Source: Massilia sp. (GTDB lineage Bacteria > Pseudomonadota > Gammaproteobacteria > Burkholderiales > Burkholderiaceae_D). Taken from it: a DNA stretch of 64,000 bases. Of the stretch, positions 6,870 through 14,837 are shown piece by piece. Positions within the stretch are counted from its first letter, which is position 1, and each line of letters starts with the position of its first letter. The translations under genes and the position numbers were made by a program. The notes below the pieces were generated by a model that saw only the letters and a program-made list of their open reading frames with translations, did not search any database and was not told where the DNA came from. The stretch is taken from the NCBI GenBank assembly GCA_025359245.1, contig JANYGW010000039.1, forward strand, positions 1 to 64,000. The letters are read 5' to 3'.

Positions 6870-7431
6870 ATCTACACTCGAACATCATCCCGAAATCATC
6901 AAGGGCCGCGCCGTGGTCGCCGACGACTGGTCGGTGCTGCGCCTGGCCGAAGGCGAAGCTGCCAGCGACGCCGTCGTCCCCGACGGCAAAGTCATCGTGC
7001 CGCTGACCGTGTGGCAGGCGCAGCGCGCAGCGCTGGCCGGGCGCGCCCAGCTCGGCGTGTGGATCGCTTCCGACGAACGTCCCGAAGTGCTCAAGGGCGA
7101 GCTCGACCAGTTCGCCGTGGTCGCCGTCGACTTCCCGAAATTTACCGATGGCCGCGGCTATTCGATCGCCTACAACCTGCGCATGCGGCTCGGCTACACG
7201 GGCGAACTGCGCGCCATCGGCGACGTGCTGCGCGACCAGCTGTTCCAGATGCAGCGCACCGGCTTCGATGCCTACGCGACGCGCCAGGACCGCAACATCC
7301 ACGACGCGCTCAAGGGCCTGACCGACTTTTCCGAGGTCTACCAGGCATCGGTCGACCAGAAATCGCCCTTGTTCCGCCGCCATGAACGCGATGTGCGCGA
7401 CGAGACCTCCGATGTAGGCTTCGGCATATGA
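6862..7431 (+). CDS. DUF934 domain protein of the cys operon
   Basis: Protein of 189 aa whose family (DUF934) is regularly found between cysI and cysH in beta- and alphaproteobacteria. Its biochemical role is not firmly known; a part in sulfite reduction is inferred from conserved context. The start at 6862 overlaps the cysI stop by 8 nt, implying translational coupling, and its own end overlaps cysH as ATGA. The conserved core lies in the C-terminal half (DGRGYSIAYNLRMRLGYTGE, LRDQLFQMQRTGFDAY). No catalytic motif, signal peptide or membrane segment is visible. Confidence 0.88.
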   Translation: MLESTLEHHPEIIKGRAVVADDWSVLRLAEGEAASDAVVPDGKVIVPLTVWQAQRAALAGRAQLGVWIASDERPEVLKGELDQFAVVAVDFPKFTDGRGYSIAYNLRMRLGYTGELRAIGDVLRDQLFQMQRTGFDAYATRQDRNIHDALKGLTDFSEVYQASVDQKSPLFRRHERDVRDETSDVGFGI

Positions 7432-8144
7432 GCGACATCACCTCACTTGTCGCTGCCACCAATGAGACGCTGGCCCGCATCGCCGCCGAATTCTCGCCGG
7501 CGGTATTCGCCTCCAGCCTGGCCGCCGAAGACATGGTCATCACCGACCTGATTTTGAAGGCCGGCCTGCCGATCGGGATCTTTTCGCTCGAAACCGGCCG
7601 CCTGCATCCGGAAACGCTGGCCGTGCTCGACCAGGTCAAGGCCGCCTACGATTACGACATCGCGCTGTACAAGCCGCAGCCGGAAGCGGTCGATGCGTAT
7701 GTGGCCCAGAACGGCCTGAACGCGTTCTACGACAGCGTCGAGATGCGGCGCGAGTGCTGCCGCATCCGCAAGGTCGAGCCTTTGGGCCGCGCGCTGGCCG
7801 GCAACAAGGCCTGGGTCACCGGCCAGCGCCGCTCGCAGTCGACCACGCGCGCCGAACTGGACATCCAGGAAGACGACGCCGCCCATGGCATGACCAAGTT
7901 CAATCCGCTGGCCGACTGGTCCGAAGAGGATGTCTGGAACTACATCCGCGCCAATAAAGTGCCCTACAATGCACTGCATGACCAGGGTTTTCCATCGATC
8001 GGCTGCGCGCCCTGCACGCGCGCGATCCAGCCCGGCGAAGACGTCCGCGCCGGCCGCTGGTGGTGGGAAAACCCCGACTCCAAGGAGTGCGGCCTGCATA
8101 TGGTCGACGGCAAACTGATACGCATTAAATCCGTGGCTGCGTAA
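7428..8144 (+). CDS. cysH: Assimilatory adenylyl-sulfate (APS) reductase CysH
   Basis: Reduces adenylyl-sulfate to sulfite and AMP, using thioredoxin; 238 aa. The paired cysteines Cys110-Cys111 (RRECCRIRK) and Cys193-x2-Cys196 (IGCAPC) are the [4Fe-4S] ligands that mark APS-specific enzymes, rather than the cluster-free PAPS reductases of enterobacteria. The catalytic Cys221 sits in KECGLH. This fits a pathway without an APS kinase, and indeed CysN here carries no CysC fusion. The start overlaps the DUF934 gene by ATGA. Confidence 0.94.
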   Translation: MSDITSLVAATNETLARIAAEFSPAVFASSLAAEDMVITDLILKAGLPIGIFSLETGRLHPETLAVLDQVKAAYDYDIALYKPQPEAVDAYVAQNGLNAFYDSVEMRRECCRIRKVEPLGRALAGNKAWVTGQRRSQSTTRAELDIQEDDAAHGMTKFNPLADWSEEDVWNYIRANKVPYNALHDQGFPSIGCAPCTRAIQPGEDVRAGRWWWENPDSKECGLHMVDGKLIRIKSVAA

Positions 8145-8173
8145 GCTCCACAACAAGAATAGGCATAGCCACC

Positions 8174-9112
8174 ATGAATACAACGACAGATATCCCGCGC
8201 GTACTTACCGACGTCAATGCGCGCCACCTCGACGCGCTCGAATCGGAAGCGATCCACATCATGCGCGAAGTGGCGGCCGAATGCGCCAACCCTGCCCTGC
8301 TGTTCTCGGGCGGCAAAGACTCGGTGGTGCTGCTGCGCCTGGCCGAAAAAGCCTTCCGTCCGGGTAAATTCCCGTTCCCGCTGGTGCACATCGACACCGG
8401 CCACAATTTCGCCGAAGTGATCACCTTCCGCGACGCGCGCGCCGCCGAACTGGGCGAGCGCCTGATCGTCGGTTCGGTCGAAGAGTCGATCAAGCGCGGC
8501 ACCGTGCGCCTGCGTAACCCGGCCACCGATTCGCGCAACGCCGCGCAGGCCGTGACGCTGCTCGAAACGATCGCCGAATACAAATTCGACGCCTGCATCG
8601 GCGGCGCCCGCCGCGATGAAGAAAAGGCCCGCGCCAAGGAACGCATCTTCTCGTTCCGCGACGAATTCGGCCAGTGGGATCCGAAGGCGCAGCGCCCCGA
8701 GCTCTGGGACCTGTACAACACGCGCGTCCATCCGGGCGAGAACATGCGCGTGTTCCCGATCTCGAACTGGACTGAGCTCGACGTCTGGCTCTACATCCAG
8801 CGCGAAAAACTGGCCCTGCCGCCGATCTACTTCGCGCACGAGCGCCAGGTCATTCCGCGCAACGGCCTGCTGGTGCCGCTGACCGACCTGACCCCGGCGC
8901 GCGAAGGCGAGACCGTCGAAACCCAAGTCGTGCGTTTCCGCACCGTGGGCGACATTTCGTGCACCTGCCCGGTGTCGTCCGACGCGGCCACGGTCGAAGC
9001 GATCATCGCCGAAACCGCAGTCACCCAGATCACCGAACGCGGCGCCACCCGGATGGACGACCAGACCTCCGAAGCATCGATGGAAAAACGCAAGAAAGCA
9101 GGATACTTCTGA
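8174..9112 (+). CDS. cysD: Sulfate adenylyltransferase small subunit CysD
   Basis: ATP-sulfurylase subunit that forms adenylyl-sulfate from ATP and sulfate, 312 aa, as expected for the family. The PP-loop nucleotide-binding motif SGGKDS is at residues 45-50, followed by HIDTGHNF and the GGARRDEEKARAKER segment typical of CysD. The C-terminus ends in the usual QTSEASMEKRKKAGYF. It works as a complex with the GTPase CysN, whose gene starts on the last base of this one (TGATG). Confidence 0.95.
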   Translation: MNTTTDIPRVLTDVNARHLDALESEAIHIMREVAAECANPALLFSGGKDSVVLLRLAEKAFRPGKFPFPLVHIDTGHNFAEVITFRDARAAELGERLIVGSVEESIKRGTVRLRNPATDSRNAAQAVTLLETIAEYKFDACIGGARRDEEKARAKERIFSFRDEFGQWDPKAQRPELWDLYNTRVHPGENMRVFPISNWTELDVWLYIQREKLALPPIYFAHERQVIPRNGLLVPLTDLTPAREGETVETQVVRFRTVGDISCTCPVSSDAATVEAIIAETAVTQITERGATRMDDQTSEASMEKRKKAGYF

Positions 9113-10431
9113 TGAACGCACGCATTGACCACACCTCTGAACAATTGACCGAGCGCGGCATGCTGCGCTTCATCACCGCCGGCTCCGTCGACGACGGCAA
9201 GAGCACCCTGATCGGACGCCTGCTGTTCGACAGCAAGGGCCTCTTCGCCGACCAGCTCGACGCCATGTCGCGCTCCAAGCACAAGCGCACCGTGGGCGAC
9301 GCAGTCGACCTGTCGCTGCTGACCGACGGCCTCGAGGCCGAGCGCGAACAGGGCATCACGATCGACGTGGCCTACCGCTACTTCGCCACGCCCAAGCGCA
9401 AGTTCATCATCGCCGACACCCCGGGCCACGAGCAGTACACCCGCAACATGGTCACCGGCGCTTCGACCGCCGACGCGGTCATCATCCTGATCGACGTATC
9501 CAAGGTCAAGCTGCACGAGGACGGCGGCGTCGACCTGCTGATCCAGACCAAGCGCCACTCGACCATCGCCCACCTGCTGCAGATCGAGCACGTGGTCGTC
9601 GCGGTCAACAAGATGGACCTGATCGACTACGACCAGGCCACCTACGAGCGCATCGTCCAGGCTTACCAGGAGTTCGCCGCGACGCTGGGCCTGAAGGACA
9701 TCACCCCGATTCCGCTGTCCGCCCTGACCGGCGACAACGTCGTCGAGGCCAGCGAAAAAATGGACTGGTACAAGGGCCCTACCCTGATCGAGCTGCTCGA
9801 ATCGCTGTCGGTGTACGACGAGTCGCACGATGCGCCGTTCCGCTTCCCGGTGCAGCTGGTGGCGCGCCACAACGGCCACGAAGCGAACGACTTCCGCGGC
9901 TACATGGGCCGCATCGAAGCGGGCAAGGTCAGCGTCGGCGACAAGCTGGTGGTGCAGCCTTCGGGCCAGAGCGCCACGGTCAAGGACATCGTCACGCTGG
10001 AAGGCTCGCACCAGTCGGCCGTGGTGGGCCAGTCGGTCACGATCCTGCTCAACGAATACCTGGACATCTCGCGCGGCGACCTGCTGGCCGGTTTCGACCA
10101 GCCGGCCACGCTGCTCAAGACCGTCAACGCCGACGTGTGCTGGATGTCGGACGAGCCGCTCGACATGCGCCGCAAGTACTGGATCAAGCACGGCACCAAG
10201 CAGACCAGCGCCAAGGTCACGGCGGTCGACACGCTGCTCGACATTAACACCCAGCAGCGCCACCCGGCGCAGGGCTTGAAGCTGAACGACATCGCGCGCA
10301 TTTCGCTCAACGTGCAGCAGCCGCTGGCCGCCGACGCGTATGCCGACGTGCGCGCCACCGGCGCCTTCATCCTGATCGATGAAGTCACCCATCAGACGGT
10401 CGCGGCGGGCATGATCCGCCTGGGCGAATAA
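9112..10431 (+). CDS. cysN: Sulfate adenylyltransferase GTPase subunit CysN
   Basis: EF-Tu-like GTPase that drives APS formation by CysD, 439 aa. The start at 9112 gives a TGATG overlap with cysD. GTPase motifs are in order: G1 GSVDDGKST (residues 24-32), G3 DTPGHEQY (about 100), G4 NKMDL (about 165); two beta-barrel domains follow. The protein stops where a CysC APS-kinase domain would begin in CysNC fusions, consistent with the APS-reductase type of CysH encoded upstream. Confidence 0.95.
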   Translation: MNARIDHTSEQLTERGMLRFITAGSVDDGKSTLIGRLLFDSKGLFADQLDAMSRSKHKRTVGDAVDLSLLTDGLEAEREQGITIDVAYRYFATPKRKFIIADTPGHEQYTRNMVTGASTADAVIILIDVSKVKLHEDGGVDLLIQTKRHSTIAHLLQIEHVVVAVNKMDLIDYDQATYERIVQAYQEFAATLGLKDITPIPLSALTGDNVVEASEKMDWYKGPTLIELLESLSVYDESHDAPFRFPVQLVARHNGHEANDFRGYMGRIEAGKVSVGDKLVVQPSGQSATVKDIVTLEGSHQSAVVGQSVTILLNEYLDISRGDLLAGFDQPATLLKTVNADVCWMSDEPLDMRRKYWIKHGTKQTSAKVTAVDTLLDINTQQRHPAQGLKLNDIARISLNVQQPLAADAYADVRATGAFILIDEVTHQTVAAGMIRLGE

Positions 10432-10443
10432 GGGAGACTCACC

Positions 10444-11202
10444 ATGTCCAGCCTCGGAAAAGTCTACCTGGTCGGCGCCGGTCCCGGCGCCCAGGACCTG
10501 ATCACGCTGCGCGGTGCGCGCCTGCTGGCGCAAGCCGACGTGGTGCTGCATGACGCCTTGGTGACCGACGAGATGCTGGCGCTGTGCCCCCAGGCCGAAA
10601 AAATCCTGGTCGGCAAACGCTGCGGCCAGCTGTCGACCGCGCAGGCGTTCATCAACAAGCAGATGGTCGACAACGCCAGAAAATTCCCGCTGGTGGTGCG
10701 CTTGAAAGGCGGCGACCCGATGCTGTTCGGGCGCGCCGACGAGGAGCTGCGCGCGCTCGAGGAAGCCGGCATTGAGGTTGAAGTGGTGCCGGGCATCACG
10801 ACCGCACTGGCCGCCGCCGCCGCGACCAAGCAGCCGCTGACCAAACGCGGCGTGGCGCGCAGCGTGGCGTTCTTCACGTCCAGCACCGCGCCAGAACTTG
10901 CCGAACATGCAGCCATCCCCGACACCGACACGCTGGTGCAGTACATGGGCGGGCGCGAAGCGATCGTCACGGCCCAGCGCATGCTGGACCAGGGCCGGCG
11001 CGCCGATACGCCGGTGGTGGTGATCGAGAACTGCAGCCGTCCCGACCAGCGCATCCTGCGCCTGACGCTGGCCACCCTGGCCCATGGCCTGGGTCCGGCG
11101 CACGGTCCGGTGCTGGTCATGCTGGGCGACGCGATGAAGATGCGCGAACGGCAGGCGGGCGATTCGGTGCAAGCGGAACAGGCCAACCGTTTGATCGCCT
11201 GA
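10444..11202 (+). CDS. cobA: Uroporphyrinogen-III C-methyltransferase (CobA/SUMT)
   Basis: Adds two methyl groups from SAM to uroporphyrinogen III to give precorrin-2, the branch point to siroheme and cobalamin; 252 aa. The N-terminal GAGPGAQDLITLRGARLL and the RLKGGDPMLFGRADEE and VVPGITTALAAAA segments are diagnostic for the SUMT family. It lacks the CysG dehydrogenase/chelatase extension. It starts 12 nt after cysN and closes the cys operon, where it would supply siroheme for the sulfite reductase. Confidence 0.93.
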   Translation: MSSLGKVYLVGAGPGAQDLITLRGARLLAQADVVLHDALVTDEMLALCPQAEKILVGKRCGQLSTAQAFINKQMVDNARKFPLVVRLKGGDPMLFGRADEELRALEEAGIEVEVVPGITTALAAAAATKQPLTKRGVARSVAFFTSSTAPELAEHAAIPDTDTLVQYMGGREAIVTAQRMLDQGRRADTPVVVIENCSRPDQRILRLTLATLAHGLGPAHGPVLVMLGDAMKMRERQAGDSVQAEQANRLIA

Positions 11203-12799: not shown

Positions 12800-14404
12800 T
12801 CAGGCTTGCGCAATGGCGCACGCGAAGGCGCCCATGCTGGCGCCGTCGAGGCCACGCGCATACAGCATGCTGGCCGCGCCGAAGGCATGCGGCAGCGCGC
12901 ACGGGCTGGCGGCCAGGTTGACCGCTACCAGCAAGCGATCATGCGCCGTGTTGCGCCAGTAGAGCAGCAGGCCGGGCGCGCCGCTGCGCACGAAATGCAC
13001 CGCGCCCTGGCGCAGCGCCGCATGGTCCTTGCGCAGCGCGATCAGGGCCCGGTAGTGCTGCAGGGTCGGCTGGTCGGCGCTGTCCCAGTCGAGCTGAAAA
13101 TCGTCCGCCAGCGACATCCAGTCGTGCCAGCGCGGTTCATTAAATTCCTGTCCCATCATCAGGTGCGGCACGCCGTCGAGCGTGAGCAGCACCGCGGCCG
13201 CCGCCAGGTGCAGCCCCGGCCCGAGAAAGCGCCAGGCCCTGCCCTGTTCTTTTTCTTCGAGCCAGCGCATGCGCAGCGCCCCGCGCGGAAAGCTGTAGGT
13301 CGATTCTTCCCATTGCCAGCGGACGGCGTCGGCGTTGACTTCGCCGCAGGCCACGCGCCGCATGGTCTCGCGCGCGCCGCCGTCGTAGGTCAGGTCGCAG
13401 GCGTCGAGGTGGTGCAGCTCGTCGGTCGACTGGGCCAGCAGGCCGATATCGGGGCGCACCGCCACCAGCGCGGCGCGGATCTGGTCGAGGAAATCGAGCG
13501 GCGTGATGTCGGCGTCGTCGAACCGCATGCCGTCCAGGTCGAAACCGGTGACCCAGTCCTGCATGGCCTTGATCAGCCAGGCGCGCAAGGCCGTGTTCGA
13601 AAAGTCGAAGCCGACGAAATGGGTGCGGTTCGGCACCGCGTAGTACGGCTGTCCGGCGCCGTCGCGGGTGAACCATTCCGGATGGGACGCGGTGAGCACG
13701 TTGTCGCAGCTGGCGCGGTTGAGCGTCCAGTCGAACATCACGCGCATGCCGCGCCGGTGGATATCGGCAATCAGCGCGCGCAGTGCCGCCGCGTCGCCCA
13801 GTTCGGGATCGATCGCGCTGAAGTCGCGCACCGCATACGGGTCGCCCAGGGCGCCGATGCGGCGCGCCACGCCGATCGGATGGATCGGCATCATCCAGAT
13901 CACGTTCACGCCCAGGTCCTGCAGGTAGTCCAGGCGCGCGCGCACGCCGTCGAACGTGCAGCCGAAGGCGCGCACCGACAATTGATAGATCACGCCGTCG
14001 GCCAGCCATTGCGGGCTGTTCACCGCCGTGCGGCGCCGGTACAGGTCGCCGGGGGTCTGTTGCGACACTTCGCCGGTGCGCACGAACACGTCGCCGAACT
14101 CGTTGACGGTGAAGCAGGAGTTGTTCTGGGCGTCTTCGGAAATCCACGGATTGGCCGGATCGGGGATCCAGTCGCGGCCGTCGAGCACAAATTTGTAGTG
14201 GTGGCGGCCCGGATCGGCCGGCACCGTGGCCTGCCAGGTCGCAGCCCCGACCCGCGTCAGCGGCGCGGCGTCGCCGACCCAGCTGTTGAACGTGCCGGCC
14301 ACGGCGACCGACTGCAGCTGCGCCCCGCCTTCAAAGGTAAAACGGATGCCGCGTGCGGTCCTTTGCGGCAGCAGGTCGTGGCGCGTATGTCGTGTCGTCG
14401 TCAT
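12800..14404 (-). CDS. GH13 (alpha-amylase family) protein with degenerate catalytic motifs
   Basis: Protein of 534 aa: an N-terminal immunoglobulin-like/CBM48-type domain (about 20-100: VAVAGTFNSWVG, HHYKFVLDG), then a GH13 (beta/alpha)8 barrel (about 130-450) and a C-terminal beta domain. The nucleophile region is intact (GMRFD, Asp296). The usual NHD motif reads EKE (residues 384-386, RWLEEKEQGRA), the acid/base position in LLAQ is Gln325 rather than Glu, and the His after FDWTLN is Arg230. Family membership is clear; ordinary glucan hydrolysis is doubtful. No signal peptide, so it is cytoplasmic. It follows the lptFG-cbiX-lipoprotein row on the same strand. Confidence 0.85.
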   Translation of the reverse strand: MTTTRHTRHDLLPQRTARGIRFTFEGGAQLQSVAVAGTFNSWVGDAAPLTRVGAATWQATVPADPGRHHYKFVLDGRDWIPDPANPWISEDAQNNSCFTVNEFGDVFVRTGEVSQQTPGDLYRRRTAVNSPQWLADGVIYQLSVRAFGCTFDGVRARLDYLQDLGVNVIWMMPIHPIGVARRIGALGDPYAVRDFSAIDPELGDAAALRALIADIHRRGMRVMFDWTLNRASCDNVLTASHPEWFTRDGAGQPYYAVPNRTHFVGFDFSNTALRAWLIKAMQDWVTGFDLDGMRFDDADITPLDFLDQIRAALVAVRPDIGLLAQSTDELHHLDACDLTYDGGARETMRRVACGEVNADAVRWQWEESTYSFPRGALRMRWLEEKEQGRAWRFLGPGLHLAAAAVLLTLDGVPHLMMGQEFNEPRWHDWMSLADDFQLDWDSADQPTLQHYRALIALRKDHAALRQGAVHFVRSGAPGLLLYWRNTAHDRLLVAVNLAASPCALPHAFGAASMLYARGLDGASMGAFACAIAQA

Positions 14405-14453: not shown

Positions 14454-14837
14454 TCACTGTTGCGTTTTTGGTGTCACCAGGACGTCCGATGGCGTTGCCT
14501 TCGGCGCGGGGATGGAACACGCCTTGGCGCAGGTCGCGGCGGCGCTCTCGCAGGCCTGGTCGCGCTCGCCCGTGCGCTTGCGCAAGTCGTCCCGCGCGCT
14601 GGCCTTGGCGTCCTGGGGCGTGTTCTGGAACTGGCCGACGGTGCGCGCCTCGCGGTAGTGCTGCTCCGCCGTTGAGAATGCCGAACTGATATCCATCTGC
14701 GACTGGTGCTCCGCTGCGGCGCGACACTGGCGCTTTTCTGCGGTACACAGCGACGTGCACATGGTCGGCTCGGCCGCGGAGCACGCGGCGGACAGCAACA
14801 GGCTGAGCAATACGGAACTGCGGAGCGATGTAGTCAT
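14454..14837 (-). CDS. Cysteine-rich putative lipoprotein
   Basis: Protein of 127 aa with a lipoprotein-type signal (MTTSLRSSVLLSLLLSAAC, lipobox LSAAC, Cys19). A ribosome site AGGA precedes the ATG at 14837. The mature chain contains two cysteine pairs near the start (TMCTSLC, QCRAA) and two near the end (DQACESAAATCAKAC), suggesting disulfides in the periplasm, with a helical middle. I do not recognise the family. It lies between cbiX and the GH13-like gene on the same strand. Confidence 0.75.
   Translation of the reverse strand: MTTSLRSSVLLSLLLSAACSAAEPTMCTSLCTAEKRQCRAAAEHQSQMDISSAFSTAEQHYREARTVGQFQNTPQDAKASARDDLRKRTGERDQACESAAATCAKACSIPAPKATPSDVLVTPKTQQ

Follow-up and report, generated by a model that had tools for sequence, protein, structure and literature searches.

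A bacterial clade of CBM48 and GH13-like proteins with a fixed set of replacements in the catalytic site

To our knowledge, the well-known GH13 proteins that do not act as enzymes are of animal or plant origin. The ectodomains of 4F2hc and rBAT (GH13_34/35) are described as GH13 barrels without shown glucosidase activity, with a triad that is not conserved in 4F2hc and that is kept in rBAT, but not across all orthologues (PMC8537225); they resemble the proteins investigated here in this respect and differ from them as subunits of animal transporters that carry no fixed new set of residues. Non-catalytic roles are also described for plant proteins with a CBM48 domain, namely PTST/FLO6, which act beside glucan enzymes (PMC6243121), and isoamylase 2 (PMC12510319), whose likeness to our proteins, drawn from these descriptions, is one of role only, since they belong to the plant starch pathway. 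A changed triad need not equal inactivity, as illustrated by BmaN1 of GH13_45, which is described as active despite the replacement of its transition-state Asp by His (PMC5347038). Like the clade described below, GH13_45 is a GH13 group whose members have a triad substitution in common, but in BmaN1 the other two catalytic residues are kept.

The closest solved relatives by sequence, AmyB of T. neapolitana (4gkl) and the L. plantarum protein 3dhu, belong to GH13_48, for which the source names NH at the end of CSR-I, NHD at the end of CSR-IV and the Glu of CSR-III as marks, a Cys before the nucleophile in 81% of the sequences of both subfamilies together, and a CBM48 domain at the N-terminus as only occasional (PMC11239784). 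One sentence of this 2024 paper mentions some bacterial GH13_48 sequences without one or more catalytic residues (PMC11239784). Here we describe a bacterial group, termed the EKE clade, in which these residues are replaced together. Among the titles and abstract starts listed by our literature searches, up to 20 for each and with few subscription papers, there is no description of it.

Architecture and probable location of the protein

The window, a stretch of 64,000 nucleotides of Massilia sp. DNA, contains on its minus strand an open reading frame that starts with ATG and has no internal stops. Its 534-residue product contains a CBM48/AMPK1-type domain, a GH13 barrel and a C domain in this order, with Pfam matches to AMPK1_CBM at residues 22-94, to Alpha-amylase with its best stretch at 150-233 and to DUF3459 at 450-518, and no match over cut-off among the 25 families listed in an NCBIfam search:

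12800..14404, minus strand: whole gene of the EKE-clade CBM48 + GH13-like protein, 534 aa (ORF and Pfam)
14105..14347, minus strand: N-terminal CBM48 / AMPK1-type glycogen-recognition domain, residues 20-100 (PF16561 and phmmer)
13055..14014, minus strand: GH13-like (beta/alpha)8 barrel, about residues 131-450 (phmmer, AF2 model, fold matches)
12803..13057, minus strand: C-terminal domain, about residues 450-534, DUF3459 / amylase C (Pfam, AF2 model)

The best matches in both sequence and fold are GH13_48 proteins, with which the protein shares the barrel and the C domain at 30% identity over 390 aa. phmmer finds 4gkl at 6.5e-54 and 3dhu at 2.5e-35, and the AF2 model obtained from 38 sequences (mean pLDDT 90.5, pTM 0.90), in which the barrel is well modelled, matches 4gkl_A with a TM of 0.82 on the target in Foldseek and 4gkl with a Z of 43.1 in VIA-align (rmsd 2.2, 390 residues), followed by 3dhu (Z 41.6). 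The model and its matches display the (beta/alpha)8 barrel with domains B and C, and the conserved regions I-IV and VII are recognisable and aligned, though altered. The position-by-position pairing with 4gkl used throughout comes from the phmmer alignment, while VIA-align provides the superposition of the whole fold.

At the N-terminus, PF16561 matches at 6.2e-08 and 33.2 bits (cut-off 26.8), and the CBM_48 profile reaches 21.9, under its cut-off of 22.4. A phmmer comparison of this part with the CBM of AMPK beta-1 (4yef/1z0m; 5.9e-07 for 4yef) places W42, K71 and W79 on W, K and W, which we take to be glycogen contacts, so that a profile match and aligned ligand-contact residues coincide. 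These three residues and N95, latter of which lies beyond the AMPK-aligned stretch, are invariant in 38/38 clade rows. A start resembling a signal peptide is absent in all 38 members, whose maximum 12-residue Kyte-Doolittle mean, a crude measure, is 1.57, compared with 2.6 for a canonical paralogue of the window genome (G000:C49, L031). Since the N-terminus is without such a stretch, the protein is probably cytosolic.

Replacements in the catalytic site and their conservation

The feature that distinguishes the clade from canonical GH13_48 is located in the barrel:

13841..13843, minus strand: D188, Ser in 57/57 canonical relatives (clade vs canonical alignment)
13715..13732, minus strand: conserved region I, DWTLNR, with His replaced by R230 (phmmer and alignment)
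13625..13627, minus strand: R260, Trp in 57/57 canonical relatives (clade vs canonical alignment)
13505..13534, minus strand: conserved region II, DGMRFDDADI, with R294 and the nucleophile D296 kept and D297 and D299 newly invariant (alignment)
13418..13441, minus strand: conserved region III, LLAQSTDE, with the acid/base Glu replaced by Q325 and E329 newly invariant (alignment)
13238..13264, minus strand: conserved region IV, WLEEKEQGR, with NHD replaced by E384-K385-E386 (alignment)

In the pairing to 4gkl, LNRA is placed on LNHA, MRF-D on FRC-D, the LLAQS block on the SET block and LEEKEQGR on LENHDQPR. The initial annotation had recognised a kept nucleophile in GMRFD, EKE in place of NHD, Gln for the acid/base Glu in LLAQ and Arg for the His after FDWTLN, and each of these readings agrees with the alignment, where D296 is paired with the nucleophile of 4gkl and E384-K385-E386, Q325 and R230 stand at the other positions; against the characterised GH13 proteins (4gkl, 3dhu, GH13_48), the replaced positions are those that it had named. 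Of the Asp/Glu/Asp triad, the nucleophile D296 is kept, the Glu has become Q325 and the second Asp E386. Replaced in the clade are the acid/base Glu, the NHD motif, the His of region I and the Trp found in every canonical relative compared; the nucleophile, R294, D225, N229, Y190 and GQE of region VII are common to both groups. Instead of the sequence marks of GH13_48, the clade has NR, EKE or DKE, Q/H and F/L, with Phe or Leu where a Cys before the nucleophile is named, and it carries the N-terminal CBM48 that is described as occasional in that subfamily (PMC11239784).

The orthologue comparison that had been proposed as a check finds the set kept in 45/45 distinct intact clade sequences, the one from the window among them, with Q325 changed to His in three. 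R230, K385, E386, D188, R260, D297, D299, E329 and D296 are each found in all 45. Position 325 holds Gln in 42 of these sequences and Glu in none, position 384 holds Glu in 31 and Asp in 14, and R294 is kept in 54/54 clade rows. All 57 canonical relatives have His, His, Asp, Ser and Trp at positions 230, 385, 386, 188 and 260, and Glu at 325. The 45 sequences form 19 groups at 80% identity and the 57 canonical ones 37 representatives, and there are no intermediates between the changed and the canonical set among the sequences compared. Removal of the distant L086, L120, L123 and one ORF of L081, the duplicates L194 and L204 and the internally shortened L170 left 54 clade rows for this comparison, and 45 of them differ from one another over residues 140-479.

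The share of conserved positions in the clade (54 rows) amounts to 27/52 in the conserved regions against 72/322 in the remaining barrel, and in canonical relatives (57 rows) to 18/52 against 32/316; part of the higher conservation of the clade is expected anyway, since it is narrower than the canonical set. Residues that are fixed in the clade (>=95%) and present in <5% of canonical relatives occupy 9/52 positions of the seven regions and 16/315 elsewhere (Fisher p 0.004; 54 clade and 57 canonical rows, with region borders drawn by the analyst). That these regions continue to exceed the other barrel positions in conservation suggests a pocket in use, as does the invariance of the new residues. 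At the level of codons, NG86 dN/dS takes values of 0.12-0.29 for the 25 closest pairs out of 703, and its median of 0.378 over 295 pairs with dS <1.5 is not very low. Selection on the clade genes is thus purifying, but not extreme.

Distribution, history and genomic surroundings

The clade is found in Oxalobacteraceae, Rhizobacter sp. Root1221, Microbulbifer harenosus, Paenibacillus and Cohnella, with a partial relative in a Clostridia MAG detected by contig scan. Its occurrence is rare and patchy: a search of 60 genomes finds five more intact orthologues in the window's genus (60-74% identity) and a split copy in G006; full-length matches are present in 9/294 genomes of the window's family, plus the split G006, and in 13/245 genomes of the family of G685, plus the shortened G723, a number inflated by the inclusion of known positives. 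Among 299 genomes of the phylum of G685 the search-centre genome is the only one with a clade member, as is the window's genome among 299 Pseudomonadota. Plasmid records returned eight matches at E <=1e-30, with identities of 28-34% and none covering 80% of the query, and no clade members were seen among them. The contig scan, from which 78 loci were kept, favours the motif since it used the peptides WLEEKEQ and [VL]AGTFN[SH]W, a bias that the whole-genome profile searches do not carry. In the latter, the intact full-length loci that were read fall into two classes, with the changed set at E <=1e-247 and the canonical set at 1e-60 to 1e-134; this reading covered the matches given a locus (up to 30) in the window-family search and all but three in the G685-family search. 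The 38-row alignment (A3) consists of the window, L003 and 36 of the 78 scan loci, without six split, shortened or contig-end clade loci (L062, L078, L079, L080, L082, L083), the canonical L081 and the 35 distant or partial matches L086-L120; L043, L060, L071 and L046 contain the same genes as L002, L004, L005 and L006, respectively.

Individual copies show further peculiarities. The orthologue of Massilia sp. H-1 (L078 / L038, G006) is split over several frames, for which sequencing error is likely because the assembly is 48% complete. In Paenibacillus prosopidis (L082, 10001-11113) and in L170 (G723) the protein is internally shortened and lacks about residues 229-344, with WLEEKEQ kept. Paenibacillus wynnii (L065 + L070, G686) has two divergent clade paralogues, one in an AraC/GH13 neighbourhood and the other elsewhere, and a Gemmatimonadota locus (L081, 9761-15261) holds a tandem pair of different GH13-like ORFs downstream of apparent sugar ABC permeases.

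Counterparts of the same architecture are intact CBM48-GH13 proteins of Bacillota (L182-L189), which match from model position 4-10 to 501-533 with E-values of about 1e-126 to 1e-134 and 32-36% identity, but differ from the clade in that NH, E and NHD are kept in 8/8. Such proteins occur in 8/299 genomes of the phylum of G685. In a 68-row tree calculated after removal of the catalytic blocks, a single branch (SH-aLRT 99) separates the 41 clade rows from all others, and the same holds for 21 clade rows in a 39-row tree, also without these blocks, to which the intact Bacillota proteins were added (UFBoot 100 / SH-aLRT 100). In these unrooted trees (midpoint for drawing), for which the tool warned of long branches and uneven composition and which do not include 4gkl and 3dhu, the clade forms a long branch of its own next to the canonical relatives, which splits into Paenibacillaceae and Pseudomonadota, and the intact CBM48-GH13 proteins place with the canonical rows, their own grouping being weak (68/53). 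A simple history would consist of one refit of a CBM48 enzyme like the intact Bacillota type followed by transfer between phyla, where we infer both the event and its direction.

The genes surrounding the clade gene vary. In 8/24 distinct Paenibacillaceae loci the order is AraC, GH13 alpha-glucosidase, clade gene and SDR, with the clade gene overlapping or following the glucosidase and being split in L079 and L080; the glucosidase is of the oligo-1,6-glucosidase type, and its copy in L076 has 9u7v as best PDB match (1e-217) and intact NH, E and NHD motifs. L084 and L218 contain the AraC gene without the glucosidase. In Pseudomonadota, a GH31 alpha-glucosidase is located directly upstream in 3/23 loci (L044, L057, L058), with a LamB porin near by, and a LacI gene adjoins or is one small called ORF away in 5/23 (L043, L059, L060, L071, L078). 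The link to alpha-glucosidases seems to have arisen twice, since the neighbour belongs to GH13 in Paenibacillaceae and to GH31 in Pseudomonadota. The GH31 neighbour looks exported, judged by reading its N-terminus, and would therefore not form a complex with a cytosolic clade protein. As clue for all members a shared neighbourhood was rejected, since most loci (14/24 in Paenibacillaceae and 15/23 in Pseudomonadota) have no adjoining alpha-glucosidase or AraC/LacI gene. All of these neighbours are absent from the window itself, in which the LacI of the closely related L043 likewise finds no match. These calls are rough because genes were called by a simple script based on ORF length and codon GC, which missed the target gene of L046; Pfam names were obtained at one locus each for GH31, LamB, AraC, GH13 and SDR and at three for LacI (L043, L059, L066), and the rest were assigned via BLAST clusters.

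Several other neighbours were not counted as adjoining, including the LacI gene of L066, which is two genes off the clade gene, a glucose-6-phosphate dehydrogenase a short way downstream in L057, L059 and L085 (TIGR00871 for L085, by cluster for the others) and a TRAP transporter and a PfkB-like kinase in the surroundings of L048 (by reading). In the window, genes read as sulfate-assimilation-like (CysH, CysD, CysN, uroporphyrinogen methyltransferase) extend over 7428-11202, and a small secreted-looking ORF of 127 aa (14454-14837) lies between the clade gene and a CbiX-like gene, in the position of the LacI regulator of L043, L060 and L071. Next to the intact CBM48-GH13 genes, read translations indicate an adjoining GntR-like regulator and ABC-transporter-like genes in five of the seven wide loci (L205, L207, L208, L209, L210), and an amidase-like gene near by in L205, L208 and L211.

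In a survey of the glycogen synthase gene glgA, which left out the genome of L076, the gene is over cut-off in 7/27 genomes, namely in 6/6 Paenibacillaceae and one other; the glgA family control is over cut-off in 7/14 named genomes. Within the window's genus and family, glgA is over cut-off in 1/9 clade-positive (G011, of the genus) and 0/10 clade-negative genomes, and in 0/2 for Microbulbifer and Rhizobacter; neither the window's own genome (82% complete) nor seven other clade-positive genomes of the genus and family are over cut-off. This low number weakens stored glycogen as a general function and makes it an unlikely general ligand, and in the window's group maltodextrins or other glucans are the likelier candidates.

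Interpretation of the changed site

Collectively, we favour, at about even confidence, a reading in which the clade has lost canonical GH13 hydrolysis and, with a refitted -1 site, would act as cytosolic glucan-binding sensor or accessory protein of alpha-glucoside catabolism. The usual hydrolysis is unlikely because the Glu and residues of the -1 site are missing. The CBM48 domain, perhaps together with the outer groove subsites, would bind an alpha-glucan or maltodextrin. In the former -1 site D188, R230, R260, D297, D299, E329, K385 and E386 would cluster around the retained D296 and R294 and accommodate another ligand, probably a polar or charged one, without cleavage of a glucosidic bond. 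In this way the protein would serve alpha-glucoside catabolism beside alpha-glucosidases. In neopullulanase, E357 is presumably the acid/base residue. The E357Q protein was crystallised with maltotetraose, according to the title of 1j0j, and this Glu-to-Gln complex is consistent with binding. Against it count the conservation of D296, R294, D225, Y190 and an acidic third catalytic position, as a working enzyme would need them, and the scarcity of alpha-glucosidase, AraC or LacI neighbours in most loci and of glgA in most genomes.

The retained nucleophile makes an active enzyme with rewired catalysis the strongest rival, if still an unlikely one. Here D296 would act as nucleophile, the acid/base would be dispensed with, provided that the donor carries a good leaving group, or be moved, for example to E329, E386 would stand in for the transition-state Asp and an anionic substrate moiety would be held by the basic R230, R260 and K385. 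A Gln at the acid/base position does not prevent catalysis by plant myrosinase (GH1). Such a mechanism would account for the presence of D296 in 45/45 sequences and R294 in 54/54 rows, for the newly invariant E329, D297 and D299 and for conserved regions whose contrast with the rest of the barrel is similar to that in canonical relatives; alpha-glucosidases adjoin in some loci, and BmaN1 offers a precedent of an aberrant triad (PMC5347038). However, both His residues (regions I and IV) are lost together with the NHD Asn and the Trp at 260, Gln has become His in 3/45 sequences, and E329 is four residues past the canonical acid/base, so that its reach to the scissile bond is hypothetical. The wider proposal of a new type of GH13-barrel enzyme, with a nucleophile Asp but no Glu acid/base, a charged -1 site, an anionic or activated alpha-glucoside as substrate and a single origin with members in two phyla today, appears doubtful to us.

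It is improbable, in our view, that the protein is a structural scaffold in which fixed salt bridges fill the pocket and only the surface and the CBM48 matter, a role proposed for 4F2hc and other non-catalytic GH13 proteins. The new charges are of both signs (R230, R260, K385 against D188, D297, D299, E329, E386) and the CBM48 is conserved, as such a scaffold would have it, but an idle pocket might drift, as does the rBAT triad among the orthologues described (PMC8537225), whereas here it is fixed over two phyla. To decay, sequencing error or misalignment we assign next to no probability: some copies are indeed broken (L078/G006, L062, L079, L080, L082/L170), but the motif set is intact in 45 distinct sequences, its alignment is unambiguous and close pairs are under purifying selection, which refutes these explanations for the clade as a whole and upholds the earlier view that the changes, conserved across two phyla, are not random decay. 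Since a dead pocket might drift and that of the EKE clade does not, a non-hydrolysing glucan binder with a re-used pocket is the most likely assignment. Of the two functions initially proposed, the binding or regulatory pseudoenzyme fits better, with the acid/base Glu and the -1 His lost and a CBM48 that looks intact, and a new transferase specificity keeps some probability, because the invariant new residues suggest use of the pocket.

Our study thus describes a single-gene clade of bacteria whose GH13 catalytic site was swapped wholesale for one fixed set of residues. Clade-type genes are easily misnamed as amylases, as are perhaps the plasmid relatives, five of eight of which are annotated as 'alpha-amylase family glycosyl hydrolase'. 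With the intact CBM48-GH13 relatives of Bacillota as comparison, the job taken on by an amylase barrel after its time as an amylase becomes directly testable.
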